Below, piece by piece: positions 29,613 to 62,282 of a stretch of DNA of 64,000 nt (the stretch's first letter is position 1; each line of letters opens with the position of its first letter). A model generated the notes under the pieces. It was given only the letters and a program-made list of their open reading frames with translations, did no database searches and had not been told where the DNA came from. This stretch comes from Benincasa hispida. Lineage: Eukaryota; Streptophyta; Magnoliopsida; Cucurbitales; Cucurbitaceae. The translations under genes and the position numbers were made by a program. The stretch is taken from the NCBI RefSeq assembly GCF_009727055.1, contig NC_052350.1:27534263-27598262 (forward strand), written 5' to 3'.

Positions 29613-31464
29613 AATTTTGTCCTCAAAATTTTACCTGATATGCCATTTGAAAAGTTGAGGGTATCTTCTTCATTTGTTCTTCAAGTTCCCAGGTTGCTTC
29701 CTCGATCCCATGATTACGCCATAACACTTTCACCATAGGAATTATCTTATTTCTGAGTACCTGATCTTTCCTGTCCAAAATCTCGATGGCCTCTTTCTTG
29801 TAAGATAAATCTTCTTTGATCTATATCGGTTGTGTTGCTAGTATGTGCATAGGATCAGGCATCTATTTCCTTAGCATCGACACATGAAATACGTCGTGTA
29901 TACGAGCTAGCTCCATTGGCAACTGCAGCCTATAAGCTGCTGGACCAACCCGTTCCACAAGTTCATATCTGTCTCTTATACACATCTAGATGTGTATAAG
30001 AGACAGGAACTGTACTGGTTGTGTTGCTAGTATGTGCATAGGATCAGGCATCTATTTCCTTAGCATCGACACATGAAATACGTCGTGTATACGAGCTAGC
30101 TCCATTGGCAACTGCAACCTATAAGCTGCTGGACCAACTCGTTCCACAATTTCATATGGTCCGATGTATCGTGGACTTAACTTCCCTTTTCTCCCAAACC
30201 AGAGAATTCCTTTCCATGGGGATAGTCGGAGAAATACCCGTTCTCCGACTTCAAATTCTAGTTCTCTTCTTCGTTTATTGGCGTAGCTCTTCTGTCCATC
30301 GCGAGCCGCCTTAAGATTATCCCTGATAAGTTTCACATTCTCTGTTGTTAGTTGAACTAATTATGGGCCCAGTAATTTCCGTTCTTCGACTTCGTTCCAA
30401 CATACTAGAGTCCTGCAAGGTCGGTCGTACAATGCTTCATAGGGATCCATTTCGATACTAGAATGGTTGCTATTGTTGTAGATAAATTCAATCAACGATA
30501 ATTATGTATCCCAACTTCCTTTGAATTTTACTACACAGGCTCTTAACATATCTTCCAGTGTCTGTATAGTTCTTTCCGACTATCCATCTGTTTGCGAATG
30601 AAAAGTCGTACCGAAATGCAATTTAGTGCCCATAGCCTTCTGTAAACTAGGCCAAAATTTTGAAGTGAACCTCGAGTCCCGATCCGACACTATCGACACT
30701 GGGGCTCCATATTGACTGATTATCCTATCCATATAAATCTTAGCTACACGATCTAGTGTAAAAGTAACTTTTACTTGTATGAACTTGGCCGTTTTAGTTA
30801 GTCTATCGACTATTACCTAAATGCCATCAAATCCTGAGGGTGTCTTAGGCAAACCAAAAAGAAAGTCCATTGTCACATGTTCCCACTTCCACTCAGGCAG
30901 TGGAAGTGGATTGAGTAATCCTGTTGGTCTTTGTCTTTCAGGTTTTACTTGTTGACAGACTATGCATCGGTCCACATGTTCTGCTATGTCTCTCTTCATC
31001 CCAGGCCACCAGTAAGATTTCTTCAAAGTTCTATACATCTTGGTGCTACTTGGATGCATGGCATAAGCGGAACTATATGCTTCCTCTAAAATGGCTTGTT
31101 TAAGCTGTAGCTTATTAGGCACACACATTCTCCCCTCCTTTTCTAGCACACTATCTGCTCCCAGTTGAAAGTCAACACTGATGCCCTTACTCACATCATC
31201 AGCAATCTTCTGCAAATCAGGGTCTTCCAACTGATCCCGTTTAAGGTTTTCTGCTAAGGTCGGCCTTATCTGAAAAGTAGGTATCATTCCTTCTGATGGT
31301 TCCACTGATAAGGTGGTTCTGGAATTCCTGAACTCCTGCAATAGAATTCCTCTTATTGAACCAATAATGGCCTTGGGTCTCGAGGATTTCTTACTCAATG
31401 CATCTGCCACAACATTAGCCTTACTGGGGTGGTATTCGATGGAACAGTCGTAATCTTTAATCAA
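29613..31464 (-). pseudogene. Chromovirus integrase with C-terminal chromodomain, broken
   Basis: 31464-30817 (215 codons) starts in the RNase H tail (IKDYDCSIEYHPSKANVVAD) and includes the H2C2 zinc-binding block (HPSSTKMYRTLKKSYWWPGM, then CIVCQQVK) and the first catalytic Asp in VTMDFLFGLPKTPSG. A stop after FDGI is followed, in broken frame, by the second Asp block (IVSDRDSRFTSKFWPSLQKA) and the SERTIQTLEDMLRACV block with the catalytic Glu. 30336-30052 holds the GERVFLRLSPWKG and KLSPRYIGPYEIVERVGPAA blocks typical of the integrase C-terminus. Further downstream (about 29900-29640) a chromodomain reads EAIEILDRKDQVLRNKIIPM then VKVLWRNHGIEEATWE. Chromodomains steer such integrases to heterochromatin. 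The adapter join at 29969-30006 interrupts this gene and repeats its neighbourhood. Confidence 0.88.
29969..30006. other. Nextera mate-pair junction adapter (assembly artefact)
   Basis: A 38-bp perfect palindrome, CTGTCTCTTATACACATCT followed directly by its reverse complement, the two back-to-back Tn5 mosaic ends of the mate-pair junction. The sequence from GTGTTGCTAGTATGTGCATA to CGTTCCACAA(G/T)TTCATAT occurs on both sides (about 29832-29968 and 30021-30158), with a few differences. This marks a chimeric join rather than a natural insertion. Confidence 0.95.
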
Positions 31465-31479
31465 TTCAATCCATCTTCA

Positions 31480-32980
31480 TTGTCTTAGATTCAACTCCTT
31501 TTGATCAAAGATATATTTTAAGCTTTTGTGATTTGTAAATATCTTGCAGCGCTCTCCAAATAAGTAATGTCTCCACAACTTCAGAGCTAAAACAACTGTT
31601 GCTAATTCCAGATCATGCGTGGGATAAATGCCTCGTGTTTCTTAAGTTGACGAGAGGCATATGCAATCACCTTCCCATCCTGCATCAACACACATCCCAA
31701 TCCTTGTCGGGATGCATCGCAATAAATCTCAAGTTCCTTACCTAGAATAGGCAAGGTAAACACTGGTGCTGATACTAGTTTTTGTATCAGCTCCTGGAAA
31801 CTATGTTCACACTCCAATGACCATTCAAATCTCATGCCTTTCTTGGTCAGGTTCGTCAATGGAAGGGCTATCTAAGAGAAACCCTCCACAAACTTTCATT
31901 AATAACCTGCCAACCCTAGGAAACTGCATACTTCTGAAACGGTTGTGGGTCGTTCCCAATTAACTATTGCTTTCGTCTTCTGGGTATCTACACTAATGCC
32001 CTCTACTGAAACAACATGCCTAAGAAATACTACCCAATCTAACCAAAAATCGCATTTAGTGAATTTAGCATACAACTGCCTATCTTGCAACGTCTGCAAT
32101 ACTATCCTCAGGTGGGTAATATGATCCTCCCTACTACCAGAATACACCAGTATATCATCAATGAATACTATCACGAACTGGTCCAAGTAGGGATGAAATA
32201 TCCTGTTCATGAGATCTATGAATACCGCAAGGGCATCTTTCAACCGAAAGGCATTACCCAAAATTCATAATGTCCATATCTCGTTCTAAATGCGGTTTTA
32301 GGGATATCGGCTTCTCTCACTTTCAGTTGATGATAACCCGATCTCATGTCTATCTTCGAAAATATCGTGGCTCCTCTAAGCTGATCAAACAAATCATCAA
32401 CGCATGGTAACAGATATTTATTCTTAATCATTACCTTATTCAGCTGCCTTTAGTCGATACACAATCTAAGTGTACCGTATTTCTTCCTCACAAACCATAC
32501 CAGAGCTCCCCAAGGCAATACACTAGGTCGAATGTATCCCTTGTCAATTAACTCTTGCAACTGAACCTTTAATTCTTTCAACTTACTCAGCACCATTCTA
32601 TATGGTGCCTGCGATATGGGAGTTGTTCCTGGAACTAAATCAATAGTAAACTCCATCTCCCTGTCAGGTGGTAATCCCGATAGTTCTTTAGGAAATACAT
32701 CCTGAAATTCATTTACCATTGGGACATCTTCTGGGTTCAACTCTTTCCCTTGAGTAACCATCATATGAGCTAGATAGGCTTTACATCCCTTGCTCAATAG
32801 CTTCCGAGCTTTCACTGTCGATATCAAATTCCCCGCAACCAATCGTTTGCTTCCTATCAACATTGCATCTTGGCCATTTGATTTTCCGAGCACTACCCCC
32901 TTCTTGTAACAGTCTACTGAAGCATGATACTTACTTAGAAAATCCATCCCCATGATAGCATCAAACTCCAACAGTTCTAA
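31480..32980 (-). pseudogene. Chromovirus reverse transcriptase and RNase H, broken
   Basis: 32971-32450 begins with the end of protease (FDAIMGMDFLSKYHASVD) and goes into the RT N-terminus (FPKELSGLPPDREMEFTIDL, VRKKYGTLRLCID). 32431-32240 holds the first catalytic block [14 protein letters not shown]. 32261-31899 holds [13 protein letters not shown], the catalytic Asp pair of the F/YxDD motif, and later FLGLAGY. 31859-31602 holds the RNase H start ([33 protein letters not shown]), and in broken frame about 31600-31480 gives the ...[20 protein letters not shown] block. Premature stops and frame changes split it into at least four pieces. Key Asp residues survive in the pieces. Confidence 0.88.
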
Positions 32981-33240
32981 AGGAAGTCAATCAGCATAGA
33001 AGTTTTAACCATTATTTAGTATCTCACAATGATTATAGCATCTATCTATTACTATCACATCTCCCAATGGGGTAGAGATAAATAACTCTTCAGGCATAGG
33101 TTTAACCAACCTATCTATACTAAGTGCATACATGCTAGATATAAATGAATGTGTGGCACCAGGATCAAATAAAACATAAGCAGACTGCCCACATACCATA
33201 ACATTACCAGTCACAACATCTGGAGACTCCACTACCTCCT
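32900..33240 (-). pseudogene. Chromovirus aspartic protease, broken
   Basis: 33232-33005 (75 codons) contains VLFDPGATHSFISSMYA, matching the retropepsin-like active site where DSG or DTG is normal; here the middle residue is Pro, while Asp and Gly are kept. The second block FDAIMGMDFL lies in the next frame at 32971. The frame break between these pieces and the altered triplet make an active protease unlikely. Confidence 0.8.
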
Positions 33241-33282
33241 AGTGTGTCATGACATACACTCGCCTTTGCTACTAGGGTCGAC

Positions 33283-34499
33283 CTACGACATTCTTCTGCT
33301 TAGCACCACATGACCCTTCGCCCCGATTTCGGCACTCTTTAGTTGGTTAACTGTCTGGGAGGTCGGCTGTTGTGTTGTTGGAACATCCCTGTTCATCTGG
33401 GGACAGTCCCTCTTGAAATGCCCTGTTTGTCCGCATTGGAAACATGCACCTTTGCCAATATAGCATGCCCCAAAATTCCTCTTGCCACAACTAGGGCATG
33501 TCGTACTTTTGTTTGTGTTGGCTACCGACTCACCAGCTCGTGGCATCTCTGATCGGCTAACTGCACCGGTCGAGGGTCTCGTTTTCCTTTTCTTGGATCC
33601 TTGCCAACTGGTTCCCCTGAAATGGCTTCTACTAGTCTGGGTTGCCACTGAAGATTAGAAACCCATGTCTCTAGGCCCTACTACGGCCTCACTGCCTCTT
33701 GGCAACTGCTCAACATCTGCCAAACTCAATTCGACTCGTATTGCTATTTCTACTAACTGGTTAAAATCTAGACAATCAGCCGTAGATGTCACCAGAGTTC
33801 TGATTTCCTTCCTCAAACCTTGCTCAAATTTCCTACATCTATCTCTTTCCTCAGCAATAATCGGCAAGGAATACTGTGATAACTCTGTAAATTTCTGCTC
33901 ATATTCTGCCACCAACATCGTTCCCTGTGTTAATCTGAGGAACTCATCCCTTTTTGCATCCCAAAACGAGCTGAGGTAATACTTATCTTCAAAGGCCTTC
34001 CTGAACTCAGGCCATAACATCACATCTGTACTGGCTCGTCTGGCGGATATCACTTTCCACCATTTCTCTGCTCCTCTCTATAGTAAAAAGATGGCTAATC
34101 CCACTTTCTTGTCCTCTGGACAACTCATAACAATGAAACATTTTTCAACTACATCCAGCCACAACTCAACTTCAGCTGGATCTATTGTACCTTCAAATGT
34201 CACAGCCCCTAGGGCTTTAACCTTTCAATACCATATTTCTTTTATGGGTTGGCTCGTGTAGAGCCAACACTAGCTGCTAACCTCTGCAGTATCCTGTCAA
34301 ACACTGCAACTTCTAGCTGTGAATCTGCCCTTGCTTGGGGAGTACTAGACTCTCCCTCAGACATCGTCTCCTGACCCACTGGATCATTCACCTTCTTTTT
34401 GCCACCCGATGGGTTCTCCTAAACCTCTGGGCCCCTATTGGTAGGGTTAGTACTCCTGCCACTTGTCTGCTTACTCGGTCGGCTACATTGCCTTGGCAT
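33283..34499 (-). pseudogene. Chromovirus gag, broken
   Basis: A start codon at 34499-34497 begins MPRQCSRPSKQTSGRSTNP about 90 bp after the PBS, the best candidate start. The gag core follows with PAEVELWLDVVEKCFIVMSC, then a stop near 34080 before RGAEKWWKV, and the open piece 34053-33655 with FRKAFEDKYYLSSFWDAKRD and LRLTQGTMLVAEYEQKFTEL. 33648-33283 carries the CCHC zinc knuckle CFQCGQTGHFKRDCP. At least two in-frame stops and one frame change are present. Gag would assemble the particle and bind RNA. Confidence 0.85.
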
Positions 34500-34588
34500 T
34501 TTACCTAATACAATGTACACATGTTAGGACTCACACTTAGAGACTTAGACTTATGCATAAACTTCCCTCTCATTCCTAAAACCTTATA

Positions 34589-34600
34589 CTCTGATACCAA
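34589..34600 (-). promoter_or_regulatory. Chromovirus primer-binding site (initiator tRNA-Met)
   Basis: Minus-strand TTGGTATCAGAG lies two bases after the 5' LTR end, complementary to the initiator tRNA-Met 3' end. Confidence 0.85.
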
Positions 34601-34602
34601 CT

Positions 34603-36678
34603 TATCACACCCCCTCTTAGATTAACCTTTTATTCTGGAAGAGGATATGACTGTGGTAGCTACTAGCCCTACTGCCAAAACTCACCACCCAAGCCTTCTA
34701 ATCTACATACCAACCTATTCATCTTATTAGCAATATACACAAACAGCTAACCTCCCTTACGTTCTTATAAAGATTACATAATTACAAGCATATAGCCAAG
34801 ACATTACTTTTATAGAAAAATATTCACAGGTGGCCCAAACATTCCTACAGAGACCTTAGTCCCTCACAAAACATGTGTACATAAACAGATTGTATACCTA
34901 AGTCTTTTAATAAGCCAAGTCTTTCGGTGGCAAGTAGCAGCAGGATCACCCTTGAGGAAACTGACCGCTACCTGAAAAGGGAAAACACAGAAATTTTGTG
35001 AGCTAAAAGCTCAGTGAGAGACTACAGAATCGTAAAGCAACAAGTGTAGCATCACTATAAACATGTAAATATACCAGTGAGTAAACTCAAGCAATTGTCT
35101 CTATATGTAGTTGTAAACCATTCTCAGACATCATTAAACATTATCATTCCCTAGTTGAGAACGTGCGTAAACGCTCTAGCTCCCAAACGTTTATTACCGA
35201 CCAAGAAACCCATACTTCAATCTCTCATTCATAACTGCCTACGTGCACGTGGCCACTAAGTACCATCATATTTTAGGTACTTCCGCTCAGATACCTTCTC
35301 AAATTTGTCCTTCAGTATCAAACTACTATGATACCTTCTCTTATGTCCTTCGATATCAAATTGGCCAGATACCTTCTCAAATGTCCTTCGATATCAAATT
35401 GGCCAGGTACCTTCTCAAATGTCCTTCGGTACCTAATTGGTTAGATACCTTCTCAACGTCCTTCGGTATCAAATGTGTATTTTGTAACATCAAATTAAGT
35501 TTCATTGCCTAGTATTTACACAAGAGTTGTTCCATTGCCACTCACTTACACAAGAACTCATTCCCTTATAGTCTTCCTCTAGGAAGCATATATCAAAATC
35601 AGAAACATAGCTTTTGTAATGGTTACACAACATACCTTGGCCTGTGTTACACACATACAAGCCGGGAAACATGCATTAAGTTATTCTCTAACCATTTGTT
35701 GCTTGAGGAAGTATAAATACTTCATTAATATCACTGTGCTTTACTTGATCATATATGCATGAGTATTAGAAACCTTAAGTTTACTGAGTCACTCACAATT
35801 CGTCAGGCTCTTATTGGTTTATACGTTTTCCTTAGCTCTTTTGGCCTGGAAAGATATAATTCCCGATTAAACTACTTAGAATTCCTAGTAAAATATCTCA
35901 AATAATTCATTTATTAAAGGAACTTCCATCAATATAGACAACTTTACTAGCGAGATCCTCCTGAGCGAGGTCAGCGAGATCCCTCTGAGCAATGCTAACG
36001 AGATCCTTTAGAGCGATGCTAACGAGATCCTTATGCGCAAATCTCGCTATAATTCTCCACAATGAACTGCTTGTTTGTTCCTCACAAGCAGTTGTCTACT
36101 TATGCACAATTCCCTGTTATAACTTCAATACTTCATAACTCAAAATTCAGAGCTCTTTTCAAGAAACTTCCTTCTACAAACTTGTTTAGATTTGAGCTAA
36201 ATTCCTCACCTTAAAATTTCAGCCCAGAATTCCTTATAGTTTGGCTTGGAACTTCCAAAATTCACCTCAGGCCCTGATTAATCCGTGGTTCTGCCTCTTC
36301 TGCAATTTCTCCACTTTTGTTCTTCTCCTCTTGCAATCTTTCTCTAACAGGACAACCTTGAATACTAGATTCTCCCAGATTTCAAATGGCACTAAATTCG
36401 CTAAATTTGCTTTTGTCAATTCCCAAAATCATGCGTTTGAAGTTTTACTTCCCTTTTTAATCCTTCTGTCGCTTCCTGAGTTCAAAGAATAAATTGCCAT
36501 GTGATTCCACACTTAGTGCCTCCAGCCAGACTAATGATTGAGTTTTTTCATTGATATATTTTCTTTCCCTTCCTTCATAATCCCTATAAACAATATGAAC
36601 TTCTATTTAATAAATATGTAATATAACATTCCTTTGGCTAAACATGCTTATCTAGGGAACCCAAGTTCGGGGTTTACA
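34603..36678 (-). mobile_element. 5' LTR of the chromovirus
   Basis: 2076 bp, starts TGTAAACCCCGAAC on the minus strand and ends next to the PBS. It aligns along most of its length with the 3' LTR and differs by substitutions and by contraction of the 24-bp array. The LTRs are clearly diverged, so the insertion is not recent. Confidence 0.9.
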
Positions 36679-37131
36679 CGGGCCCCTAAACATGGATATG
36701 ATATAGGATCTCACTAAGTTTAAAACTCATATTGGGCCTCCAAACACACCTATATATTTTTTTTATATATATCCATAACTTAACTCCTTTTCCTTTTTTA
36801 AATTCCCACTTCAAATCTTTTCAAATCTAAAATTCTAAATCTTCCAAATTCTCCAAATCCTCAATTATCAAATCACATATCAAATTAATTCAAATAATCA
36901 TCTTATCGATTGTCCTAATTATGCTCCAAACATCAAAGTTGAAAGGAAATAAGAACCAATATTTTTAAGACAATTAATTCAAATCTTCAGTCAATTAAAT
37001 TCAAATTGACCTATAAAACTTGTCAATTATCTCAATTTGATTCCAAATACCAAAAACTAAATGGGTCGAACTAAGATCCACTAATTTGTCAAAATTAACT
37101 TAAATTTACCTTGAATTCAGGATGTTACATT
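36679..37131 (-). mobile_element. LTR-like fragment ending GATGTTACA
   Basis: The right edge reads TTGAATTCAGGATGTTACA, the reverse complement of TGTAACATCCTGAATTC, a typical gypsy LTR start. The left edge is the chromovirus insertion point; the other half of the host sequence probably ends at 27313 (ATATATAAAAATGGG). AT-rich, no gene. Confidence 0.45.
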
Positions 37132-38340
37132 TCCAAGGAGAAAAGGATGTGAAGATCTAAACCTTGAATAATTTTCTTTTTGTAATTCCCCTCCTTGAAA
37201 CTGCACAGAATGAATGCAAATCTTCCTCGAATTGGCAAAATACCTCTCACGAAAGAAAAAGTCACAAATAGGAGACACCACCATTTGGGTTTCCTCGCAT
37301 TCTTTGGACAAAGAATCAAGAATGTGTGGACTCTATAATCTGGTAGGGAGAAACGATTGTGGGAGAGAGGTTTCTTAAGGAAGAAGATGAAGAATGTAGA
37401 GAAAACTTTTCTCTTCTAAATGATCTATGCGTTAGATTAAAGCTTCTACAAAATGGATCTTCTCCCTCCCATTTGACATGAGAGTTAGTTGGTTGAATCA
37501 AATTAATATATAATTAAATAAATATTAATTACTTAATCAATTAATTATCATATATGTAATTTAGTTTGAATCATATTCAAATAATAACCTCTCACATAAC
37601 CCATAGTTTTAAAATTAATCTCATTCATATTAATTATAAACTATAGTTTTAATATGAATCTCATTCACATTAATTTAATTTCATTCATATTAACTTTAAG
37701 CTATAGTATTATATGAATCTTATTCATATAATTAATATTTGAATCTTATTCAAATACTAGTTCCTCACATATTATAAAGTATAATTTTGAATCTTATTCA
37801 AAATTAACTTTATTTATAACGTATCTATATACATTATATTAATTGTATCTTATACAATTAATTTTCTTATTTAATTTGAACGATTCAAATTAATCCAAAA
37901 CTAATTGGTTCTTGTTTTACCCTTAGTGAGATAACAATGGGATTTTATGGACCTATAGATTAGAAGCTCCAATGACACTAGATTAATTAATTAAACTCTT
38001 TAATTAAATTAATCAACATTCATTAATGGCAAGTCACTCTACTAAAGACCCACAGCTGCACTCTTCATACTGTAGATGTATTTCTATGTTCATGGATATA
38101 ACTAATCAACAGTAAATCGACTCTTTACAAATCGCTTGTAACTACAACTGGGTCAAATTACCATTTTACTTATGTAGTTACATCTAACTCCTTAAGTACA
38201 TTGATTTCTCTAATGAACAAATAGTTTATAGTCCAACTATAAATTAATCCCTCTCAGGCCAGTGAAAGGGTGAGGCCTCAATGTTTAAGACCTTTTCCAT
38301 GAAGGCTTTTACATGGGTAAATCCTTATTTCTATCGATGA
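37132..38340 (-). mobile_element. Diverged L1-like LTR copy
   Basis: 37970-38290 corresponds block by block to 52790-53110 of the reverse L1 LTR: GGACCTATAGATTAGAAGCT versus GGATCTGTAGCTTGAAGCTC, the CTGCACTCTTC block, CTGTAGATGTATTT, CAACAGTAAATCGACTC and GTAGTTACATCTAACTCCTT, the last identical. The AT-rich part 37500-37900 with repeated ATGAATCTCATTCATATTAA units fits the AT-rich middle of L1. The outer ends are unclear. Short minus frames at 37117-37501 overlap each other and have no domain. Confidence 0.65.
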
Positions 38341-38957
38341 ATCATGTGTGGACAAAAATTTCATTTTGTTAACAAGTTGTTGCATTGGCAGAAATAGTTT
38401 TTTTTCGATGCATAATGGGTGGACAAAAATGTGATTTCTACCCATAAAAGTTGTTACAAGGGCAGAAGGCTTTTCTACTCATGTGTTTACTTGTATGGGC
38501 CTTTATGTCGATGCAACGTCAAAATGCAGGGCAGAAGCTATGCCAACGGACTTCTGCCCACACTATCTGCCCATGCAAAAAAACAAAAAAAAAAAACAAG
38601 AAGAAGAAAAACGTCGACAAAGACTTTGCCCACACTTTTCTTAAGATCTGTCGACATCTTTTTGCATCAACGGAGAAAAAAATGTTGTAACAAATCTTAT
38701 CTACATTTGTAATATATATAAAAATATTTATAAGGAGAAATCTTTTTAGACCAATTTTACCCTTCAATATGACTTTTTTCTTTGTCTTTGCTTTGATGTA
38801 ATTTTTCATTCACACACATACAATTTTTATGGTCGTTTATGTGTTAACTTTCATTCCTTATTAAAATAGGACAATAATTTTATAAACAATATAACTTAAT
38901 GCTATATGTTATAGAACATCAAAGACCTTTCGATCTCCACATTATTTGAGTATATAT

Positions 38958-38988
<31 letters not shown>

Positions 38989-39337
38989 TTTCTTTCCTTC
39001 TTGTTCTTACAATTTTTTACAATTCCTATTTTATCCCTATTATATCTCTCGATAAAAATCTTCCTGATAGATACCTCATCAACCAACCCTTTCATCATCA
39101 ATTGAAACCTTTCATCAAAAGAGCCTTCTGCAACGAGACTTCCATCTGACAACCACCCTATTTGTACCTTTTTAAAAAAAAAATTAATTTTTTATAGATT
39201 TTTTTTTGTCAGGCATAGTTTCATAAGTAACCTTTTCTAAACTATAAGAGATCAAAATCGATCCATACTGCACAATAAAATCTATGCCACCATTAAAAAT
39301 AACAATTCCCGATTTTTTTCCCTCTCTTTTATTTTGT
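38341..39337. other. No gene; AT-rich, (TA)n and possible transposon remnant
   Basis: 38345-38580 shows several related GGCAGAA(G/A)..TTTT and GGTGGACAAAAATGTGATTT pieces on both strands, which could be subterminal repeats of a DNA transposon, but no ends or TSD were found. A (TA)n run lies at about 38950-38990. The frames at 38419-38809 overlap in three frames over Lys/Phe-rich low-complexity DNA. Confidence 0.5.
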
Positions 39338-39499
39338 TGTAACAACCCAGATTTGTACGCATACACTACAGGAAATTAAATTATGAAATTTATTGGATGA
39401 TAAATATAAATACCCTAACCTTAATTTAGGAAGCAAAGAAACAATTAAAAAATTAATAATAATAATAAAAATAAACAAAAATAAAAATAAAAGAAAATT

Positions 39500-39990
39500 C
39501 GAAAGAACGAAGGTGGAGAGAGCGAGACTCTAATTGAATGATAAATAAATAAATAAATAAGTAAATAAAAGAAAATTGCGGAGAGCGAGAATTGCACGGA
39601 GAAAACTGGAGAGAGCGAGATACTAAGAAGAGAGTGTACGATCGAAGAGAGAATTAGAGAGCGAGAAAACCCAGCGAGCGAGGCTAGCGAGAATTGAGGC
39701 TAGCGAGAGTAGAGAGAGCGAGATCCCTGGAGAGAGCGAGATGAAGGAAAATCGGAGAAGACAAATTTAGCGAGAAAGCTGGAGAGAGCGGGATTCCCAG
39801 TGAGAAAGCTGAGAGAGCGAGATTCCTAGCGAAAAAGCTGGAGAGAGCGAAATTCTGAGAGTAGGGAGAGCGAGATTTGGACGGAGCGATATTTAACAAA
39901 GCGAAAGTGGACAGAGCAAATTTCTAGCGAGAAAACTGGAGAGAACAGATTCTGAGAAAGAGTAAGCGAGAATTTGGATAGAAGCGCGAA
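39500..39990. repeat. GAGAGAGCGAGAT short-unit array
   Basis: GAGAGAGCGAGATTC, CTAGCGAGAA and AGCTGGAGAGAGCGAGAT recur irregularly at 15-30 bp spacing. The chromovirus LTRs carry related AGCGAGATCC units. Confidence 0.75.
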
Positions 39991-40249
39991 TATGTGTTAG
40001 AAATTTGGCCACGATATATAGATGATTATACATAGAAAACCTAAAATTGAATATCAAACAAAGTAATGATGACTAAAGGCAACGTTAGCCAAGATTAGGT
40101 GTCTTATAGAGCCTTAACCCTAATATATATCTAGTACTGATTCACAGAGCATACTTATATTCTCATTGATGACAAAACAAAACAATCCGTGTACGAGAGT
40201 TTAGTAAACTGTACTATAATAGGCTGAAAAAGATTTCTTCCTAATTATC

Positions 40250-40257
40250 TATAAAAG
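40250..40257 (+). promoter_or_regulatory. TATA box of the solo LTR
   Basis: TATAAAAG within ATCTATAAAAGCCTTAAATC, in the middle of the LTR downstream of the GAGCGAGAT array. Confidence 0.5.
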
Positions 40258-47553: not shown

Positions 47554-47555
47554 AT

Positions 47556-49068: not shown

Positions 49069-49860
49069 AGTGATAGACAGTGATAGACAGTGATAGACCG
49101 TGATAGACTACTATCACCATCTATTAGTGAATAAGAATGGGAGGAAGAAGAAGCTACTAATAGATAATGAAATGAAAAAGCGCTAGTCAATGATAGTAGT
49201 CTATCGTTGTATATCAATAAATAAAAAAAAATAATTACTACTACTAGACACTAATAGGGTTCTATCACTATCTATCACTGTCTATCTGTGATAATGATAA
49301 TAAAGAAGTGGTGAATATATTCATGATGATTATTTTGTAGTCCAAGTCTAACATTATCGAAGAAGAAGAAGAAGAGAAAGGGGAGAAGGAGAAGGAGGAA
49401 GAAGAGGAAGAGGTAGAAGAATATAGACATTCATAGTAGTCAAGAAGAGGAAGAGGAAGAATAAGAGAAAATAGAAGAAGGGGAAAAAGAAGAAGACAAA
49501 AAATAAGAAGAACAAGATAGACACTATGGTAGTCTATCACAGTCTATTAGTAATAGATAGTGATAGACTACTATAGACAGTGATAGACTACTATCATTAT
49601 CTATCTGTAATGATGATGACGATGACGACGACAACGATAGTCATTGATAGTAGTATATCACTATCTATCAAAAAGAAGAAGAAGACGAATCAATGATAGA
49701 TAGTGATAAATTATTATCACTATTCACTGATAGTAGTCTATCATTATCTATCATTGATAGACAATGATAGTAGTATATCACTATCTATCAAAAAGAAGAA
49801 GACAAATCAGTGATAGATAGTGATAAATTATTATCACTATCTATTAGTGAATAAGAAGAG
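49066..49860. repeat. TGATAGAC/CTATCA composite repeat with GAA-rich tracts
   Basis: Units such as CAGTGATAGAC, TGATAGACTACTATCA and TCACTATCTATCA recur on both strands, forming many short palindromes, with GA-rich tracts at about 49360-49510. 49664-49735 and 49785-49850 are near copies (AAAAAGAAGAAGA.GA.CA, GTGATAAATTATTATCACTA). Confidence 0.85.
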
Positions 49861-49867
49861 GAATAAT

Positions 49868-50288
49868 AATATAGTAGTAGTAGTAGTAGTAGTCGTGGTG
49901 GTAGTAGTCGTGGTGGTAGTCGTAGTCGTGGTCGTAGTAGTCGTAGTAGTGGTGGTAGTAGTGGTAGTAGTGGTGGTAGTAGTGGTAATAGTGGTAGTAG
50001 TGGTGGTCGTAGTAGTAGTAGTCGTAGTAGTGGTGGTCATAGTAGTAGTAGTGGTAGTCGTTGTGGTGGTGGTAGTAGTAGTGGTAGTCGTAGTAGTGGT
50101 GGTAGTAGTAGTAGTAGTCGTAGTAGTGGTGGTAATGGTAGTAGTAGTCGTAGTGGTAGTAGTAGTCGTAGTCGTAGTGGTAGTCATGGTAGTAGTCGTA
50201 GTCGTGGTAGTAGTGGTAGTAGTAGTAGTGGTAGTAGTAGTGGTAGTAGTAGTAGTAGTAGTAGTAGTCATAGTAGTAGTAGTAGTAA
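49868..50288. repeat. (GTA/GTC/GTG)n imperfect microsatellite, about 140 triplets
   Basis: Almost every triplet is GTA, GTC, GTG or, rarely, a one-base change (GTT, ATA, ATG). One frame reads poly-Val, the complement reads poly-Thr and another Tyr/His/Asp-rich; none is a gene. Confidence 0.95.
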
Positions 50289-51268
50289 ATTTTTGGCCAA
50301 GTTTGAAGTAAAAAAGAAACCATGCGTTTGGTGTTAGGAAGCACTAACGCATAAGGCTAAATTTGTAGAGGTTATAAGAGATTAAGCCTTGAAGCCAATA
50401 GTGGCCAAGTGAAGAAAAGCCATGCACTGGACAAGGCATGTGACAATCAAGTTTTGGAGGTTAGCATGCATGTGGCAAAATTAGGGCGAGCATGGGTGCT
50501 GGCGTTGGAGCTTGGGCGCTAGACGATCGCATAGCTGCTTGTAGCGCTAGACAATAGTACTAGACGATAGTGCTAAATGATGGGCTTGGGCGCTAGACGA
50601 TAAGCGGACGTGTTAGATGATGGGCGTTGTTCTAGACGATAGGCATGAGTGCTAGACGATGGCCGTGATGCGTCAGACGGTGGGGTTAGCGCTATGCAAT
50701 GAGTGACAACGAGAGATATGCAATGAGCGACAGCGAGATCGTTAGGTGATAAGCGATAGTGAGAGATCACTAGACGATGGATCTATGCAATGGGGCGTAA
50801 GCACTACGTGATGGGCGTAGGCGCTAGACGATGAGCGATAGCGAGAGGACTGGATGATGACCGACAACGAAAGGGCTGGATGATAAGCGACAGCGAGAGA
50901 TTACTAGGTGATAAGCTATTCGATAAGTGCAAGAGCTACACGATGGACTAGATGATGGGTAAGTGTTTATCTGTTGCTAAAGCTTGCGATACACAAGGCT
51001 GATGCATTCACCCGAACAAGTGGCTAAACCGAGAAGAGGTTGAGCTTGAGTTAGTAGGAGGTGAACAAATAAAGTTGCATGCAAGGAAGACTTATGCATG
51101 AGGAAAACAACTCAAACTTCATGCAAGTAGGTGAGTGGCATGGAAGTAGGTGAATGGCATGAAAGTAGGTGGTGGCAAAGCATAGTGCAGACACTCTAAA
51201 AGTTTCTAAATGAGGAGGTGTCATCCGTTAGAAGACTTAAGAAATGATGAGGATCGATTCCTAAAGCC

Positions 51269-51840: not shown

Positions 51841-53777
51841 TGAAGGAAATCAAACATAAAGATTTCCATGAGCAGTAGAATGATCGTTCCAAATTCCATT
51901 CAAAATTGACCATACACAATTACAGTCAAGAAACGAAAACTTACAGGTCATGCACAATACGAAATTACAACATGCTTTACACTAAGATCAAGGGATAACA
52001 GATACATACCTTGGAAGACTCATTCGTCAAAATTCGATCACGAATGCTCGTCCAATCTCTAAGGCAGTAACACATGAACGCTCAAACATAATGATTTTCA
52101 AGATCACAAACCCAATGAACGCCTCCAAAACCTCGAACTCAGTCGAGTTGAGTGAGGACACCACCACAATGGCTACCTTGGTATTCTCGGTGTGAGAATC
52201 CAAAAGTGAACTATCGTATAGCTATGACCAACTGAGTGAACTATCGTATAGCTATGACCAACTGAGTGAACTATCGTATAGTTTCACTCCACGATCGTTT
52301 AGTCTTTCTTTCAACTATCGTTTAGTGAAAACAATTCTCACTTGATAGCGATCCGTGAGTTCTTTTCGAAAATAGAAACTCTCTCAAAATCTACTAAATT
52401 TAGGAAAACATTCTTCATTTTATCTCATGGTTACCATGAAACCACCAATAACCTCCCACTCAATTGGTTATTAGAGAAAAAGATATAATTATCCAATTAT
52501 TATTATTATTAGAAATATATATGATAACCAACTTACCATATTATATTTATAACCTATAGTTTTAATATTTCATCTAATGAAACATATAAACCATAGCTCT
52601 TTTTCTATTTCATGGTACTTAATGTAAATCTCATTTACATTAATCATCCACTTGATGTATTTCATATATCACACCGATCATATAATATATAATCGAATTT
52701 TCTCTTGTCAATTTGAACATTTTAAATCAACACCAAGAACTGATTCTCAACTTGAATCCATTGAGCTACCAAGGGGACCTTATGGATCTGTAGCTTGAAG
52801 CTCCAACAGTATGTGAATAGCTGACTAAACTCTTTAGCCACGAGATCCACCATCCGTTAACTGCCAAGCACTCCACCAAAGATCGACAACTGCACTCTTC
52901 TAACTACAGATATATTTTGTGTTCATATTAACCAATCAACAGTGTGATAACCCTTCACAGATCGCTCGTAAGTACAGCTGGGCCAATAATCGTTATGTCC
53001 CTGTAGTTACATCTAACTCCTTAAGTACCATTGATCCCTCTAATGAACAGAAGTCATAGTCCTACTATGACTGAGTCCTTTCTTCCAAAGAGAAGTTGTG
53101 GCCACTATGTTCAAGAATCAGAATCAGCCCTTAAAGGAGTAATCTATCTACTTACCCCTCTTCGGGGAAGGAGTAAATTCCATCTTGTGTAACTGAGTTT
53201 CCAACTCCCAAATCAGATAAATCCCCAAAAAGGTAAGCATGTTGAGTTGGCAATCTGGCCACTCTCACCCATACTAATCAAAGGACCGCCCTCACAGGCA
53301 GAAGTTTTCAAAACACTTAGGATCAAGGTCATGTCACCTATGGTCATTTAGGTGAGATGTAAGTCTCAAGTATCAATGGCGTTATATAAAGAGACTAGTC
53401 ATCTCGTGGTACGGTCTTATACAAACTCTTTGTATAGGACACCCCTACTCGCATGTCTCCACATTAATGGTTAGGATCTACCATCTGTAGTAGTTCACAA
53501 CACTTGAAAACCTCTACAAAGTGGGTCGTATCCATAGTCACCAGGATCAGGTATCCCTCCTTAATCCTTATACTACAGACCTTTTTAGGTTATCACTTAA
53601 GGCATGATCCACTTGTATATCTCATATACATGCTTAAGTTTACATACAATAACCATGGAGTTTTTTTTTATTGGATATGAGTAAATGTCAAATAAAATAA
53701 CTCTTATTTTATTCATAACAATGTGTACAGTTTACAAACTACGAGACTCCAGGAGAATTAGGACACCGACCCTAACA
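51841..53777 (-). mobile_element. Solo LTR of family L1 inserted in the L2 LTR
   Basis: Starts TGAAGGAA and ends CCCTAACA, the reverse complement of L1 ends. The L2 sequence breaks off at CCAAGGTGA and resumes at AGTGAGTGG, giving an imperfect 5-bp TSD GGTGA/AGTGA. 52206-52300 holds three copies of a 30-bp unit GTGAACTATCGTATAGCTAT plus GACCAACTGA. No coding sequence, so a solo LTR of 1937 bp. Confidence 0.85.
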
Positions 53778-53923
53778 AGTGAGTGGTATTTTCTTTAAGT
53801 CTTAAGCATATCTTTTAGAGTATACGTATATGCTTATGTTATGAATGAATAATTAGAATGAGTATGAGATTATGTGATCGGGATGGTCAGGGGGTCAATA
53901 GACCTAGTTCCTGAGCCCGGAGT

Positions 53924-53961
53924 CTGTCTCTTATACACATCTAGATGTGTATAAGAGACAG
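53924..53961. other. Nextera mate-pair junction adapter (assembly artefact)
   Basis: Same 38-bp palindrome as at 29969. GGTCAATAGACCTAGTTCCT followed by GAGCCCGGAG occurs just before (about 53892) and again just after it (about 53979). Confidence 0.95.
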
Positions 53962-54663
53962 GACCGGGATAGTTAGGGGGTCAATAGACCTAGTTCCTGA
54001 GCCCGGAGCAGAATCTCACGGGATGGTTAAGGGACCGAGAGATCTAGTTCCTGAGCCAATGAGAGGAACCTTATATGGGATGGTCAGAAGGCCAACAAGC
54101 CTAGCTTTTGAGCCGATAAGCAGGGATCTATGTGCACATAGGGAATGCAAGAGAGTAAGCATTTATGATTAGTATCAGTTTAGCTATCTACCGTGTGAGT
54201 AGATAGAGTTGAGAACAGACTCATTCGAGACTAAGGTTTGAGTATTAACCTCATAGTTGTGATATGCTTGTATTTTTTATGAGTTGAAATAAACTCTAGA
54301 AGTTGCTTACCACTCACTGAGCTTCTTGAAGCTCATTCTTTTCTTTCATGTTTTTCTTCCCTAGTAGTAAAGGTGTGGAGTTTCAAGGTGCTGCTAAGGT
54401 CAAGGTCTGCCACAGCCATAATTACACTTCCAGTTTTAGAGTTGTTGTTGTAAACTCTGTAGTTAAGTCTGGGAATTGTATAAACATTGTATTATTTGTA
54501 GTAAAATGAGTTTAGTCAAACAGTTGTTGTTTATATCTTTGACTTAGAGTTTTATGAGTGTAAAAATGTTCAGATGGGTAATAGGTATCATAAAAGGGTG
54601 GTATCTGCGGTCTGTCAGGCCTCCCCTCGAGCTCAGGAGGTGGGCTCAGGGCGGGGTGTGACA

Positions 54664-54834
54664 GAGAAGAAGCCAATGATAAAAGGAGGAGATAAGCCAA
54701 AGGGAAAGAGTGAAAGTGAACAAATTAAAGATATGCTTAAATTGTACAAAAACTATGGTTATACCTCTTATGGAGGTCCTAATTATCGTGTGTATAGTGT
54801 TGAGAAGGATCCTAAATTTTGTGTCATATCTTGA
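54664..54834 (+). pseudogene. Unrecognised coding-like fragment, possible host exon end
   Basis: Directly after the L2 LTR end, one frame reads EKKPMIKGGDKPKGKSESEQ, then IKDMLKLYKNYGYTSYGG, PNYRVYSVEKDPKFCVIS and a stop at 54832-54834. The amino-acid mix is varied and balanced, unlike the repeat translations around it, and about 57 codons stay open up to the stop. The upstream part of the same frame is LTR sequence, so the true start is lost. I do not recognise the family. It could be the 3' end of a host gene or of another element disrupted by the LTR, or a chance frame. An AATAAA stretch at about 54843 follows the stop. Confidence 0.35.
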
Positions 54835-55828
54835 ATGGTATCAATAAACTTTTAGATCGAGTACCAATTTTTTTGGGGGAAAATTAAATTTGCATATCTG
54901 AATTAGCATATAATATGTTATTTAACGATAACAAGCTTGGTAGTTTAAATTTCTCATTTCAATTTGAGTTATGATTGGATTGATACGTTTTGCCAAGTTA
55001 GTTTAAAATGAAAAAAAGCGCAAATTGCAAAAAACATCCCTAAATATGGTGGTAGTTGCAATATACCTTCAAACTTATATAATTGTAGAAATTGTAACAA
55101 TTATATATGTTTGAGGGTTCAAATTTGGTCCAAATTCTATAATTGTTATAAGTTAGTGGGTCAAATTTTAATATTTGTATAACTTTGAAGACTCAGTTTT
55201 TACAATTGAAATTTTAAGTATGTAACTGCAACTACTATCACATTTTAGTGGTGATTTTTATGATTTGTAAAAAAATTAAAAAAAAAAAAAAACCTAGAAC
55301 TAAAATTGGAATTTTGATCTTTAGATGATGAAAGAAGGGTCTTGTATAACCAAATAGGCTTCTTCCATCCAAACAAGGAAGAAAAATAAGGAGGGACACA
55401 TTTTTAGCTTTTAGGAAGAAAGTTCTAAGGTCATAAATGCTAAATCGCTGAGCTTCTTCAATAGATTTAGTGGTTTTCATAACATTAAAGTAGCTAAGTT
55501 TTCTACAATATTAAAAAATTTCATAGCTACGTGGATATAATATACATTTGCATATAAACTCATTGATAGGATTTTTTTAATATGGTTTTTATATATTATT
55601 TTATTTCATGTTTATATGGCTTGATATTAATTTAAGTAACCTAATTTTGATACATAAAAAAGTTTTAGTGAAAATGTCAAAATGGTGTGTATATATATAT
55701 ATATATAATATATATATATACGCGGAATACTAAATTTCTTTGCCTAACTTATTACATATAAACAAAAAATGGTATGTGTGACATAAATGTACAGCAATTA
55801 TTGGATTAAATCAATGCATCGTTAAGTG
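54835..55828. other. No gene; AT-rich with (TA)n tract
   Basis: AT-rich sequence with a (TA)n run at about 55690-55721. The frame 55238-55480 (minus) has no recognisable domain. Confidence 0.6.
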
Positions 55829-58800
55829 TAGACATGTCCATGAGGCGGGGACGGGGAAGGCATCCCCATCCTTCGCCCCCTATACCCTTCCTCGTCTCCG
55901 CTAATTTTTCCATGGGGATTCTACAAAGATCGAGTTCCCCGCGGGAAAAATTCCCCGCTTTTTCTCTTTTTTCAACTTTTTTTTAATTTTAATAGAATAT
56001 ATTTTTTTCAATGGAATTTTAATTGAAACATTTGCAATGCAATTTTATTTCAATGAAATATTATCAATATTCTATTAAAAACAATACATAGATAATTTCA
56101 AAATATGTAATTAAAATGATAATTTCTCATTATTTATAAAAGTTAAAATTCAATTATTAGAACATCCACCTATAATTATCCATATTTCTTATTAAAAATC
56201 AACTTAAACTTAAATAATTAAAAAATCCATCCATAATCATCATAACAAAATTAACAAAGTTTTCAATTACATCAAAAGGTTCACAAATCAGAAGTCAAGA
56301 CAAAACAACATAAATTTTAAAGAAAAGCTATAAAATAGCCAAATCAAGCCATCAACAATTTTCATCCAACTTTGTAGAAGATGATTCTTGAAAAAAAAAA
56401 ACAAATATTGTACAAATTAATATAAATCAATGTTAAAATAATAATAATAGTACACAAACTCATAACTTACATCATCTAGATCTCGATCCTCAAGAACATT
56501 TTCCAAAATTTAACATCTGTAGGAGTATGCTTATCTATTTAAGACATAGACAAAGGAAATTAGATCTTAAATTGTAAATAATACAAGTTTAATAAATAAA
56601 TTAAACAATAATATTAACTCATAGCTTTAGCCCATAGCCAATCTTAAGTACACATCAAAACTTCTAATAAGTTTTCATGAATTTGCGAACGATGTGGACT
56701 TACATGTCTATCACTAATACTAAATGCAGATTTAGAAGCAACAATTGTGATGAGAACAGTTAGAATATCTTTTGCAATTTGATACAAAATAGAATACTTT
56801 ACTCCATTCAACTTCCATCATTACAAAATATTAAAGTCATCCGATCGCAGTAGAAGAGACTCGTCTAAATAATGATTCAACTCTGATTTGATATTGTCAA
56901 TATCATTTTCCACATTATTAACAAACTCTTCAAACTTGAGATATCGATCTTTCCTATTAACAAGAGAAGTTGAAGTACTACTTTCATCTCGCTTTGAAAT
57001 CGAAGAAGTATTAATTGTAGATGTAGAATGTTGAGGTTCTTCTAATATACTTGAATTCGAACTAGAAAACTTCATCAAATCACAACAGAGATTTCTCACA
57101 CATTTAATTTCAACAGTAAGATGATATCTATAGATTTGAGGAAAATAAAACTGGATCAATCTCATCTTAAACTTAAGATCTAATATTGAGCTATTGCCAA
57201 TACACCATGAATCAAACTCCAATATTTTTCAAACTTAGCCATCATTCTAGATGCCATTACTTGTATCTCCTCAACATCAGAACTAAGCCACTTAAAAAGT
57301 TCCAACCTAATTTCACAAACTTCTTCAGAAAAGACATTGGAAGTTGGATAACTTGACCCAGAAAATAACTCAGACATCAAGTAAAAGGGTTCTAATCTAT
57401 CACACATTTCTTTTGCAAAATTTCAATCAGTCTCTGAAGGAAGACAAGTGTATAGTGGTTCACGTTGTTTTAGACAAGGAAAACCATTATTGTATTCCAA
57501 AGCAATTTTGAGCATCAAGAATGTTGAATTCCATCTTGTTACACAATCAAGACTTAGTTTTTTAGTGCATGAAATTTGTAATTGACGTATTCCTCCTTCA
57601 AAATTTTCCTTCCTTTTTGGAGAAAGAGTCCAAAAATGAACAGTACCACTAATCTTTTCTATATCATCAGAAATTACAGCCAAATCATCTCTTACTATCA
57701 AATTTAGAATATGTGCACGATAACTCAATGCAATCATAGTGTCTTTAAATCTAATTTCCTTAATAAAATGTCAACCATTGTATCATTTGTTGCATAATAA
57801 TCTACCGTTGCCGTGGATAGTTTACGATCTATATTCCAATCGAATATACACTCCATTAATGCTTCAGAAATTAACTATCCAGTGTGTAGATGTGGCACAT
57901 GTACAAACCTAATATTATGTAATAATTTGTTAAAATGTAAATTGCATGCGGAGCCAAATAAATAGGAACCAAGAATCATCAATAAAATGAGTAGTGATTG
58001 TCACGTATCCCTTCTTTTGACTAGTCGCAATCTACATGTCCGTAGTAAGGGCAACCCTGCTTCTATTCTTTTCCAAAAACTTCATTTTTTTAATTCTCTC
58101 TTCTTCCTAAATTTTTGTATTATATCTCTCCTCATCGTGCTTCTCGAAATCATCTTAAACATCGGTTGAACACCACTCGAAAACTTTCTAAATCCTTTGT
58201 GTTCAACCATGTTTATAGGATATTTATTTAAAATTATAGCACAAGCAAGGCCTCTTCGAGAAGCTTCATAATCAAAGAGAGTTGAATTTAGCACTATCTT
58301 TCCCTCATGATTTTAGTGGGTCTCAAACATAATTGCCTAATGTCTAATTGTCTTTGTAAGGGACAAATGTTGAAATGATAATGTAAATTTTTTGTCCCAT
58401 TTTTAAATTCTCCCAACTTTTTCCACAATAATACATATTGCTTTCATGATATCATTTATTTTTTTGTCTTTATAATGGTTCCATACTGCCGATGTCAACT
58501 TATTACGTTTTGGAAAATCCTCATTATCATCACCATCTAATGTAATAGGTGTATATTGATTATTATCACTTGAAACACTATTCATTGGGGTTGATTCACT
58601 CATGATCATAGATATTGGAGTTGAACCGCCTTGTTCTAACTCATTATTATTCGATAAAGTCATTTTCACCAACAAATAGTCAAATAATAACAATTACATA
58701 TCATTGTAATTATGAAAAAAATTAATCAACGTGATTATCACTATTGTTATAAGAAATTATTCGATGAAACAAATAGATGTTGGAGAAACTAAAATGGGAT

Positions 58801-59692
58801 GAAGATTCTCAAGCTAATTCTTCTTCAAAATATCAAAAATTCTTCCTCGAAAATTGATGCTGTCAAATTCTTGCTATTATCTTTTCATGTTTTTACTACT
58901 GTTTTGAGCTATTTTCTACTACTAACAACCATTTCCTACAAACCAAAGAGGATTAAAAAAACATGACAGCAACTCCCAAAATAAACTCATCGTGACAGAT
59001 TAAATAGTTAGTGGAATTCGGACATACCTTGAATGGGAGGAGAAGACGATGGCTGGGCTTGAAGTGAATGAACCGCAAACTAATAGATCCGAGGACTGAG
59101 GGTGAGGGTGTGACACCAAAATCATGAAAGCTGAAATACAAAAACCACCGAAATCATGAAAGAACTGAGATGCCGACAGACATGAACCAAAATCGTGGGT
59201 GTGAGTCTGTGATGTCGGTGGAGTGGAACATGGAAGACACCGATATACTTGAAGATGCCGGTGGAGCGGAACGTGGCTGCGCTGGGTGAAGGACGCCAAG
59301 GCGTGACGACCGTCGAAGACTCAAACTCGAAGGAGCGGAGAGGTGAAATCGTGAGGCTAAGATGCGGCCGCTTGCTAAGTTCTGAGACTAAGAGTTAATA
59401 GGGTTTCATTTCAATAAGAAAAAGCTATATATATATATGAACAGAATAATATTTAAAATTAATACATTAATAATTATATAATTAATAATTATATAGTATA
59501 TATATAATATTATTACTCGGGGCTGGGCAGGGGATTGGGGCAGGGTCGTGGATGGAGAATAAAATTCCCCATCCTCGGCCTTGGAAGGTAAATGAGGAAA
59601 AAAAATCTCCCATCCCTCCCCCTGGGATTCCCCGCCTTGTTTGGGCGGGTCCCCGCGGGGCCCTGGCTTCACAGGCTAAATGGACATCTCTA
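55829..59692 (-). mobile_element. hAT DNA transposon, 3.9 kb, inactive
   Basis: Ends TAGACATGTCCAT and ATGGACATCTCTA are inverted repeats with one or two mismatches, and GTTAAGTG at 55821-55828 and 59693-59700 is a perfect 8-bp target duplication. The subterminal regions are GC-rich with CCCCGC-type runs on both sides (55841-55965, 59515-59665). The single gene inside is a broken transposase on the minus strand. The rest of the element (55970-56820 and 58700-59515) is AT-rich or, at 59040-59370, GC-richer non-coding sequence. A perfect TSD with broken coding sequence means the mobile history is clear but the copy cannot move itself. Confidence 0.93.
56821..58675 (-). pseudogene. hAT transposase (RICESLEEPER-like), broken
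   Basis: Minus-strand blocks in order: a start region with MTLSNNNELEQGG (58663), then KRNKLTSAVWNHYKDKK, the front of a BED zinc finger whose later Cys/His residues are lost; an RNase H-like core remnant; 57737-57423 with RAHILNLIVRDDLAVISDDI and LSLDCVTRWNSTFLMLKIAL, the hAT CxxHxLNL/TRWNST region; 57407-57180 with RMMAKFEKYWSLIHGVLAIA; and 57222-56821 with KSELNHYLDESLLLRSDDFN, the beginning of the hAT dimerisation (hATC) domain. Stops and frame changes lie between 58400 and 57740 and again near 57420 and 57180. Plant hAT transposases bind the element ends and cut; this one cannot be made. Confidence 0.88.
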
Positions 59693-59700
59693 GTTAAGTG

Positions 59701-60479
59701 GGGTAGAGTCTTTTTTTTCCTCCCAATGAAAATATATATCATTAGGGTGGTGTAGGTTTTTTATTCTCTTTCTTTAATGTAATGTCTTAAAATATATATA
59801 TTATTATAAATATTATGATAATAGATGTTCATTAGATGCTCAAATTTAGTGTCTATTGACCATGTGTCATACCCCATTTCTCCAAGTGTTGTCCATCTAT
59901 CTCAAGATTAACACTATTAGTGTCCATGTAATCCACCCCTATTTGCCAAATTGCCTATAAATAGTGGTATTTGGTGGCTATTGTAAGACACACATAGATT
60001 AGTGAAAATTCCATGAGTTTTGGATAAAGTGGAGATTTTTTAATTTTTTAATTTCTATAATTTTCTTTATTTGTTCCATCTTTAGTTATATAGTTGTCTT
60101 AATTAATTTATTTACATATTATGTTGATATTATATTGTAATTAGAGGAGATGGAGCAAGGCCACCTCCCAAGGATTTTTACCTGAGACTATTGAGGGCAA
60201 TTCATCTAGATATGTAGGTGATAATGGTGATTCACTTGGAGATATAGAGCATAATGGCACTAATGATACTGAATATCCATTACATATTACTTGTGATCAC
60301 ATCCAAGAGAAAGGAAAAAAAAAAAGAATAGGATCAAAAAGTAACTATTCGCACGAGATTTCAAGAGAAATGTATTTTGTGGAACTTGAACTTTGTATTT
60401 GTATTAATTTTGTGGAAAGTGAGTAAAATCTCTAATACATAATATTTTGATGCTTTCAAAATAAACTATAGTATTTAAG
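59701..60479 (+). other. Promoter-like region and short unrecognised frame
   Basis: A TATA box (TATAAATA, 59956-59963, in GCCTATAAATAGTGG) is followed 190 bp on by a piece starting ATGGAGCAAGGCC at about 60149. In one frame this reads SQGFLPETIEGNSSRYVG, DNGDSLGDIEHNGTNDTEYP and so on for about 90 codons before and after an A-rich run. I do not recognise the product. The layout would fit an LTR with leader and gag start, but no ends or PBS were found. Confidence 0.3.
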
Positions 60480-60570
60480 CTGGTTGATCTTCTTGAATGA
60501 TCGACTTTTGGGCTTATTGATCTTCTTGGATGATTGGCCTTTGGGCTAGTTGATCTTCTTGGAAGATTAG
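60480..60570. repeat. 33-bp tandem repeat, three copies
   Basis: Units of (G)TTGATCTTCTTGAATGAT plus (CGA)CTTTTGGGCT(A/T), with substitutions. Confidence 0.75.
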
Positions 60571-61430
60571 TGTTCGCACGAGGCTTACGAACTTAAGTTG
60601 GTGTTAATGTTGAGGTTAATTTGATGTGATGTGGTTCAATCTCTAGTATTTGATCCTCTGATTCTCTCACAGTCAAATGTGTACGCTTGATTTGAGGAAG
60701 TGAAGCGCATGATGATCTTGGAGTTGAAGTCTTGGAAGAATGCTTGTATCTCCAAAGGACTTCAGTCTTCAAACGTGATCAGATTGCTTGTATCTTCAAA
60801 GGACTTCAGTCTTTAGAACTTTGGTATGTCTTCTGATCTTCAGAGCTTTAGTGTCTTCTTGTCACGCCCCCTCCCAAATTACCCTTTTATTCTGGAAGAG
60901 GATATGACCGTGGTAATTATTAGCCCTACTGCCAACACTCACCACCCAAGCCTACTAATCTAAATACCAACCTATTTAAAACATTAGTAATATACGCGTA
61001 TAGCAAACCTCCCTTAAGGTTCTACAAAGATTACATAAATACATACATACAACCAAGACATTACATTTACAGAAAAATATTCACAGATGGCCCAAACATT
61101 CCTAAAGAAGCCCTAGTCCCTCTCAAAACATGTGTACATAAACAGATCATCAACCTAAGTCTTCTTAATAAGTCGAGTCTTTCAGTGGCAAGCAGCAGTA
61201 GCATCAACTTTGAGGAAACTGACCGCTATCTGAAAAAGGAAAACACAGAAATTCTTTGAGCTAAAAGCCCAGTGAGCGACTATAGAATCGTATAACATTA
61301 AGCATTACATCACTATAAACATGTAAATATACTAATGAGTAACTCAAGCAATTGTCTCTCAATGTAGTTTTAAACCATTCTTAGACATCATTAAACATCA
61401 TTAATCCCTAGTTTAGAACGAGCCTGAAAC

Positions 61431-61468
61431 CTGTCTCTTATACACATCTAGATGTGTATAAGAGACAG
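61431..61468. other. Nextera mate-pair junction adapter (assembly artefact)
   Basis: 38-bp palindrome of two Tn5 mosaic ends. TTAGAACGAGCCTGAAA before it and TTGAGAACGAGCCTAAACGC after it are the same LTR position. Confidence 0.95.
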
Positions 61469-61838
61469 TCATTAAACATTATTATACCCTAGTTGAGAAC
61501 GAGCCTAAACGCTCTAGCTCCCAACGTTTATTACCGGCCAAGAGACCATACTTCGGCCTCTCATTCATAACTGCCTACGTGCAAGTGGCCATACTAAGTA
61601 CCATCATATCTTAGGTACTTCTGCTTGGATACCTTCTCAAACTTGTCCTTCAGTATCGAGCTACTAAGATACCTTCTCAAATGTCCTTCGGTATCAAGCT
61701 GGTCAGGTACCTTCTCAAATTTCCTTCGGTACCAAATTGGTCAGATACCTTCTCATATGTCCTTCGGTATCAAGTTGGTCAGGTACCTTCTCAAATGTCC
61801 TTCGGTACCAAGTTGGTCAGATACCTTCTCATATGTCC

Positions 61839-61876
61839 CTGTCTCTTATACACATCTAGATGTGTATAAGAGACAG
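61839..61876. other. Nextera mate-pair junction adapter (assembly artefact)
   Basis: Same palindrome. ACTAAGTACCATCATATCTT occurs on both sides (about 61594 and 61880), so about 280 bp of LTR is present twice. Confidence 0.95.
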
Positions 61877-62084
61877 ATACTAAGTACCATCATATCTTAG
61901 GTACTTCTGCTTGGATACCTTCTCAAACTTGTCCTTCAGTATCGAGCTACTAAGATACCTTCTCAAATGTCCTTCGGTATCAAGTTGGTCAGGTACCTTC
62001 TCAAATTTCCTTCGGTACCAAATTGGTCAGATACCTTCTCATATGTCCTTCGGTATCAAGTTGGTCAGGTACCTTCTCAAATGT

Positions 62085-62122
62085 CTGTCTCTTATACACA
62101 TCTAGATGTGTATAAGAGACAG
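62085..62122. other. Nextera mate-pair junction adapter (assembly artefact)
   Basis: Same palindrome. After it the sequence jumps back to TCTAGTTGAGAACGAGCC, an LTR position already passed at about 61490. Confidence 0.95.
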
Positions 62123-62244
62123 CTATTACTATTCTCTAGTTGAGAACGAGCCTAAACACTCTAGCTCCCAACGTTTATTACCGGCCAAGAGACCCATACT
62201 TCGGCCTCTCATTCATAACTGCCTACGTGCACGTGGCCATACTC

Positions 62245-62282
62245 CTGTCTCTTATACACATCTAGATGTGTATAAGAGACAG
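62245..62282. other. Nextera mate-pair junction adapter (assembly artefact)
   Basis: Same palindrome. After it the sequence jumps forward to the GAGATCC array (TTACTAGTGAGATCGATACC). Confidence 0.95.

Follow-up and report, generated by a model that had tools for sequence, protein, structure and literature searches.

The 38-bp palindrome that occurs six times in the window, a 64,000-nucleotide stretch of the wax gourd (Benincasa hispida) reference assembly, is almost certainly the Nextera mate-pair junction adapter built into the assembly, an artefact rather than natural DNA. The window corresponds to C2:27534263-27598262. The first-pass annotation had proposed this origin, and the proposal was borne out by the exact sequence, the number of copies in the assembly, the Tn5 preference on both sides, the absence of an insertion duplication at any of the six sites, the junction-free copies of the repeat at site 2, and the recurrence of this 38-mer in unrelated assemblies of bacteria. 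It had also described the sites as chimeric joins, which goes further than the results for sites 1 to 3. The two flanks there come from overlapping portions of a single repeat family, and the visible change is therefore a false duplication of 141, 47 and 41 bp, respectively, plus 38 bp. The refined picture is one of small duplications that are false, and of gap fills in repeats, rather than of long-range chimeras that have been proven.

We located the palindrome at 29969-30006 (site 1), 53924-53961 (site 2), 61431-61468 (site 3), 61839-61876 (site 4), 62085-62122 (site 5) and 62245-62282 (site 6), without strand assignment and at the six positions given in the first-pass annotation. All six copies matched exactly at 38 of 38 positions, while 100 dinucleotide-preserving shuffles of the window gave a mean count of 0.00. 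At every site, two 19-bp halves, each of which we take to be the Tn5/IS50 mosaic end, lay back to back with 0 bases between them. Half-sites (19 bp, up to 3 mismatches) were found 12 times in the window, and all 12 fell within the six palindromes. Outside the six sites, no 10-, 11- or 12-mer adapter remnant was found in the window, nor did the window match any of seven further adapter or linker sequences (with 1 or 3 mismatches allowed). The window contains zero N. The palindrome is open in one reading frame, so junctions could yield false peptides.

The search of the whole assembly, which had been suggested as a check, was then run and returned 9,991 exact copies of the 38-mer in 912,946,352 bases (1791 contigs), a density of about 10.9 per Mb; the reversed 38-mer, used as a control, returned 0. 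The 19-bp mosaic end was present 10,766 times in the forward and 10,764 times in the reverse orientation, giving 21,530 ends. Full junctions accounted for 19,982 of these, and the other 1,548 lay outside full 38-bp junctions, as single or imperfect adapters. A uniform spread predicts 0.70 junctions per 64 kb and a Poisson chance of 9e-5 for six or more, but the six in the window form three clusters, and clusters are common, with more than one junction at 8 of 40 sampled loci. The sample comprised 50 junctions in these 40 loci, namely the first 50 sites listed on C1, and is non-random; together with the six window sites it gave 56 junctions. In a small test of flank matches among 41 sequences, 27 of the 56 junctions and 18 of 40 control stretches lay in repeats, with no clear difference, so the confinement of junctions to repeats genome-wide is not supported by this small test.

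The target consensus of Tn5 is GNTYWRANC. We read 105 distinct ends, taken from the 40 loci and the window, outward from the mosaic ends, and the consensus was met at positions 1, 4, 5, 6 and 9, that is, at 5 of its 7 specified positions. The frequencies against background were 0.43 vs 0.22 for G, 0.82 vs 0.49 for Y, 0.82 vs 0.57 for W, 0.76 vs 0.51 for R, and 0.40 vs 0.21 for C, respectively, while positions 3 (T) and 7 (A) were at background. The mean consensus match peaked in exact register, at 3.82 vs 3.07 for the next of 20 offsets. Genome-wide, G adjoined 8,907 of the 19,982 mosaic ends. Ends from bacterial contigs (n = 274) gave the same pattern, with positions 3 and 7 likewise failing. 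These results show that the flanks were made by Tn5 tagmentation.

Such junctions would arise when Tn5 transposase cuts genomic DNA in vitro and attaches a 19-bp mosaic end to both ends of every fragment. On circularisation of the fragment, the two mosaic ends would come together and form the 38-bp palindrome, to the left of which lies the end of the fragment and to the right its start. The reads probably derive from the mate-pair libraries of the B227 genome paper; those crossing a junction would have been left untrimmed and would then have extended or patched contigs. The resulting sequence has the form A-X-adapter-X-B or, in 61429-62291, that of several short pieces in succession, each bounded by adapter. 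Repeats may have been favoured at the window's sites because contigs tend to break there. The likeness to the known Nextera mate-pair junction lies in the exact 38 bp, the Tn5 preference and the occurrence in unrelated assemblies; the difference is mostly one of scale, as a single plant reference here contains about 10,000 copies. With the mosaic ends of Tn5/IS50 the sites share the 19-bp end sequence, but here no element separates the ends, which face one another, and no 9-bp target duplication was found at the six sites.

The wax gourd genome paper (PMC6856369) gives a total of 913 Mb, with 859 Mb anchored to 12 chromosomes, and describes three paired-end libraries, five mate-pair libraries of 2 and 8 kb, assembly with ALLPATHS-LG, mate-pair scaffolding and gap filling with PBJelly. 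Its main text names no Nextera kit and contains none of the words nextera, adapter, trim, gapcloser and junction. PMC6298255 describes tagmentation with biotinylated junction adapters, after which trimming is done with NxTrim.

Sites 1 and 2 each lie between two copies of the same short sequence. At site 1, the left copy (29828-29968, plus strand) and the right copy (30017-30157, plus strand) are 141 bp long and 97.9% identical, and at site 2 the two 47-bp copies (53876-53922 and 53962-54008, both plus strand) are 93.6% identical. The repeat at site 2, the only one assessed for copy number, is high-copy: a first look gave 1293 candidates, of which 40 were scored, with 41 matches including the site itself. 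Eight plus-strand copies were drawn from these 41, and all eight lacked the junction; in each of them the sequence is continuous, and the two flanks have about 45 bp in common. Site 1 lies inside a Ty3-type element, about 376 bp past the LTR edge at 29592. The LTRs of this element lie at about 27314-29592 and 34602-36678, and the internal region between them encodes, on the minus strand, an aspartyl protease together with an integrase zinc-binding domain. The two LTRs are 91.5-93% identical, and the outer five bases of the element (27314-36678) are TGGGT and CGGGC, with no exact target duplication. Elsewhere in the window, a segment of about 1.09 kb (22782-23869) matches its own reverse complement at 88%, forming a long imperfect palindrome among repeats, and 49817-50356 is a trinucleotide-rich simple repeat with open frames of nearly a single residue on both strands; it is not a gene.

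Sites 3 to 6 lie within one LTR (60860-63054, minus strand), whose edges were set by self-comparison with the two LTRs described above. The left flank of site 3 (61388-61428, plus strand) is duplicated over 41 bp and is 87.8% identical to 61469-61509. Between the sites lie three plus-strand pieces bounded by mosaic ends: a 370-bp piece (61469-61838) between sites 3 and 4, a 208-bp piece (61877-62084) that is 99.5% identical to 61591-61798, and a 122-bp piece (62123-62244) that is 95% identical to 61478-61595. The right flank of site 5 matches the same LTR 647 bp earlier; at site 6 both flanks belong to one LTR family, and the path afterwards skips about 826 bp forward. In the coordinates of the first relative (about 27314-29592), the path runs to 27882, back to 27842, on to about 28185, back to 27968, on to 28169, back to 27851, on to 27970, and then forward to 28796. 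In total, 61429-62291 (863 bp) replaces 913 bp of the first relative, and between the nearest anchors shared with the second (34602-36678) there are 1014 bp here vs 857 bp there. These lengths are suggestive of a repeat gap that may have been filled with adapter-bearing reads to about the expected length.

The first-pass annotation had stated that the same repeat-derived sequence lies on both sides at most sites and that all six are in high-copy LTR sequence. A flank-to-flank match within 300 bp was found at four of the six sites (29969, 53924 and 61431, with 61839 in part); 62085 and 62245 gave no such match, with flanks that still belong to the same LTR or LTR family. The statement on LTR sequence proved loose: sites 3 to 6 lie in an LTR, site 1 is inside an element beyond the LTR edge, and site 2 can be described only as a high-copy repeat. 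Location in an LTR retrotransposon is demonstrated for five of the six sites, with four of these five within an LTR.

We compared the flanks across all 56 junctions. The start of the right flank repeated the end of the left flank over at least 41 bp at 19 junctions, window sites 1 to 3 among them, not all of them independent because some share one cluster (two in L146); a partial match was found at 6, and no match within 300 bp at 31. The same overlap was found at 0 of 207 random positions of the 40 loci, which gave 8 other matches (a further 193 draws near a junction were dropped). Overlapping flanks were also present at 21 of 130 junctions in bacterial contigs. At several loci (L136, L143, L147, L152, L159, L170 and L171) the overlaps were 100% identical over 59-190 bp, and at locus L146 an identical 129-bp piece occurred three times between four junctions, a pattern that looks like a walk around a loop. 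At two sites we searched 10 kb for a partner flank and found weaker repeat matches of 74-83%, the best being 83% identical; neither of the two sites had a near-identical partner 2-8 kb away, as a plain circle join would give.

The 38-mer was also found in other collections. Bacterial genome contigs contained it in at least 120 stretches and viral contigs (IMG/VR) in 7, and 5 plasmid records of PLSDB carried it at 14 places over both strands; the E. coli genome and phage collections gave no match. The exact 38-mer in unrelated assemblies fits a reagent. One PLSDB record, from Cronobacter sakazakii, holds the 38-mer at 6 places. Two IMG/VR contigs from sample 3300021189, L007 (7600-7637) and L011 (8377-8414), end 6 and 9 bases past the junction, as if assembly had stopped there. 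As a separate observation, the best 120 of 663 matches to the integrase ORF, which included Benincasa hispida proteins, also contained protein P0116, named for Corynebacterium sp. MC-02 and located on a 2,168-base contig. It resembles plant retrotransposon integrase (44% identity) and may represent plant contamination in a bacterial assembly.

Two readings depart from an origin in Nextera tagmentation. One takes the palindromes for real Tn5/IS50-derived insertions in the plant genome, or for a very small mobile element there whose ends are those of Tn5. Identical palindromes across a genome can resemble a small mobile element, and the flanks do show the Tn5 target preference. An insertion by Tn5 leaves a 9-bp direct duplication, yet at lengths of 1 to 40 no insertion duplication was found at any of the six window sites. 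None of exactly 9 bp was found among the 50 junctions in 40 loci, where the number of shared bases was 0 in 33, 1 in 10, 2 in 1, 3 in 3, 4 in 2 and 10 in 1, or among the 130 bacterial junctions (17 near a contig edge were dropped). Moreover, nothing lies between the abutting ends, the same 38-mer occurs in unrelated bacterial assemblies, and 19,982 of the 21,530 mosaic ends sit in perfect junctions (the listing of 38-mers is itself exact by search design). We regard natural insertion as vanishingly improbable. In the other reading Tn5 played no part, and the 38-mer was a ring adapter that was ligated to DNA sheared by mechanical means. PMC7357533, on low-coverage mate-pair sequencing, prints an identical 38-mer; in that protocol it serves as a ring adapter, which T4 ligase joins to mechanically sheared DNA. 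Sheared ends would lack the Tn5 preference, which is seen here at the 105 ends and in the adjoining G at 8,907 of 19,982; this preference argues against a ring adapter on sheared DNA and makes such a source very unlikely.

A further alternative keeps the mate-pair reagent and changes the route by which the flanks came together. Unrelated mate-pair reads would extend contig ends into the adapter, and the ends would then merge through the 38-bp palindrome that they share, without any one molecule having joined the two flanks. We give this route a probability somewhat short of even. The junction is common to all such reads, the diverged overlaps at sites 1 to 3 (97.9, 93.6 and 87.8%) imply that the two flanks are not copies of one fragment, and site 6 skips forward rather than back. 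Against it stand the overlaps that are identical over 59-190 bp at several loci and the 129-bp piece repeated in L146, as a small circle or loop would give. The exact overlaps favour a join present as a real molecule, in short self-circles, while the diverged overlaps and the forward skip favour a join made by the assembler through the shared palindrome. On either route the palindromes remain mate-pair junction adapters.

We also searched the wax gourd literature in titles and abstract openings, with most subscription papers outside the search, and found there no report of this contamination. It is fairly probable that about 10,000 adapter joins, apparently unreported in the literature searched, are present in the wax gourd reference. 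If the sampled share (19 of 56) holds, about 3,000 of these would be short duplications that are false, and many of the rest would be fills of repeat gaps; the dating of LTRs, the calling of structural variants and the gene models built on this reference could be distorted as a result. A published crop genome that underlies population and domestication results (PMC6856369) contains about 11 adapter junctions per Mb, which is a practical warning. Each junction is an exact marker of untrustworthy sequence, and one 38-base search finds them. The value of the finding is a quality warning for a public crop reference, and it carries no biology.
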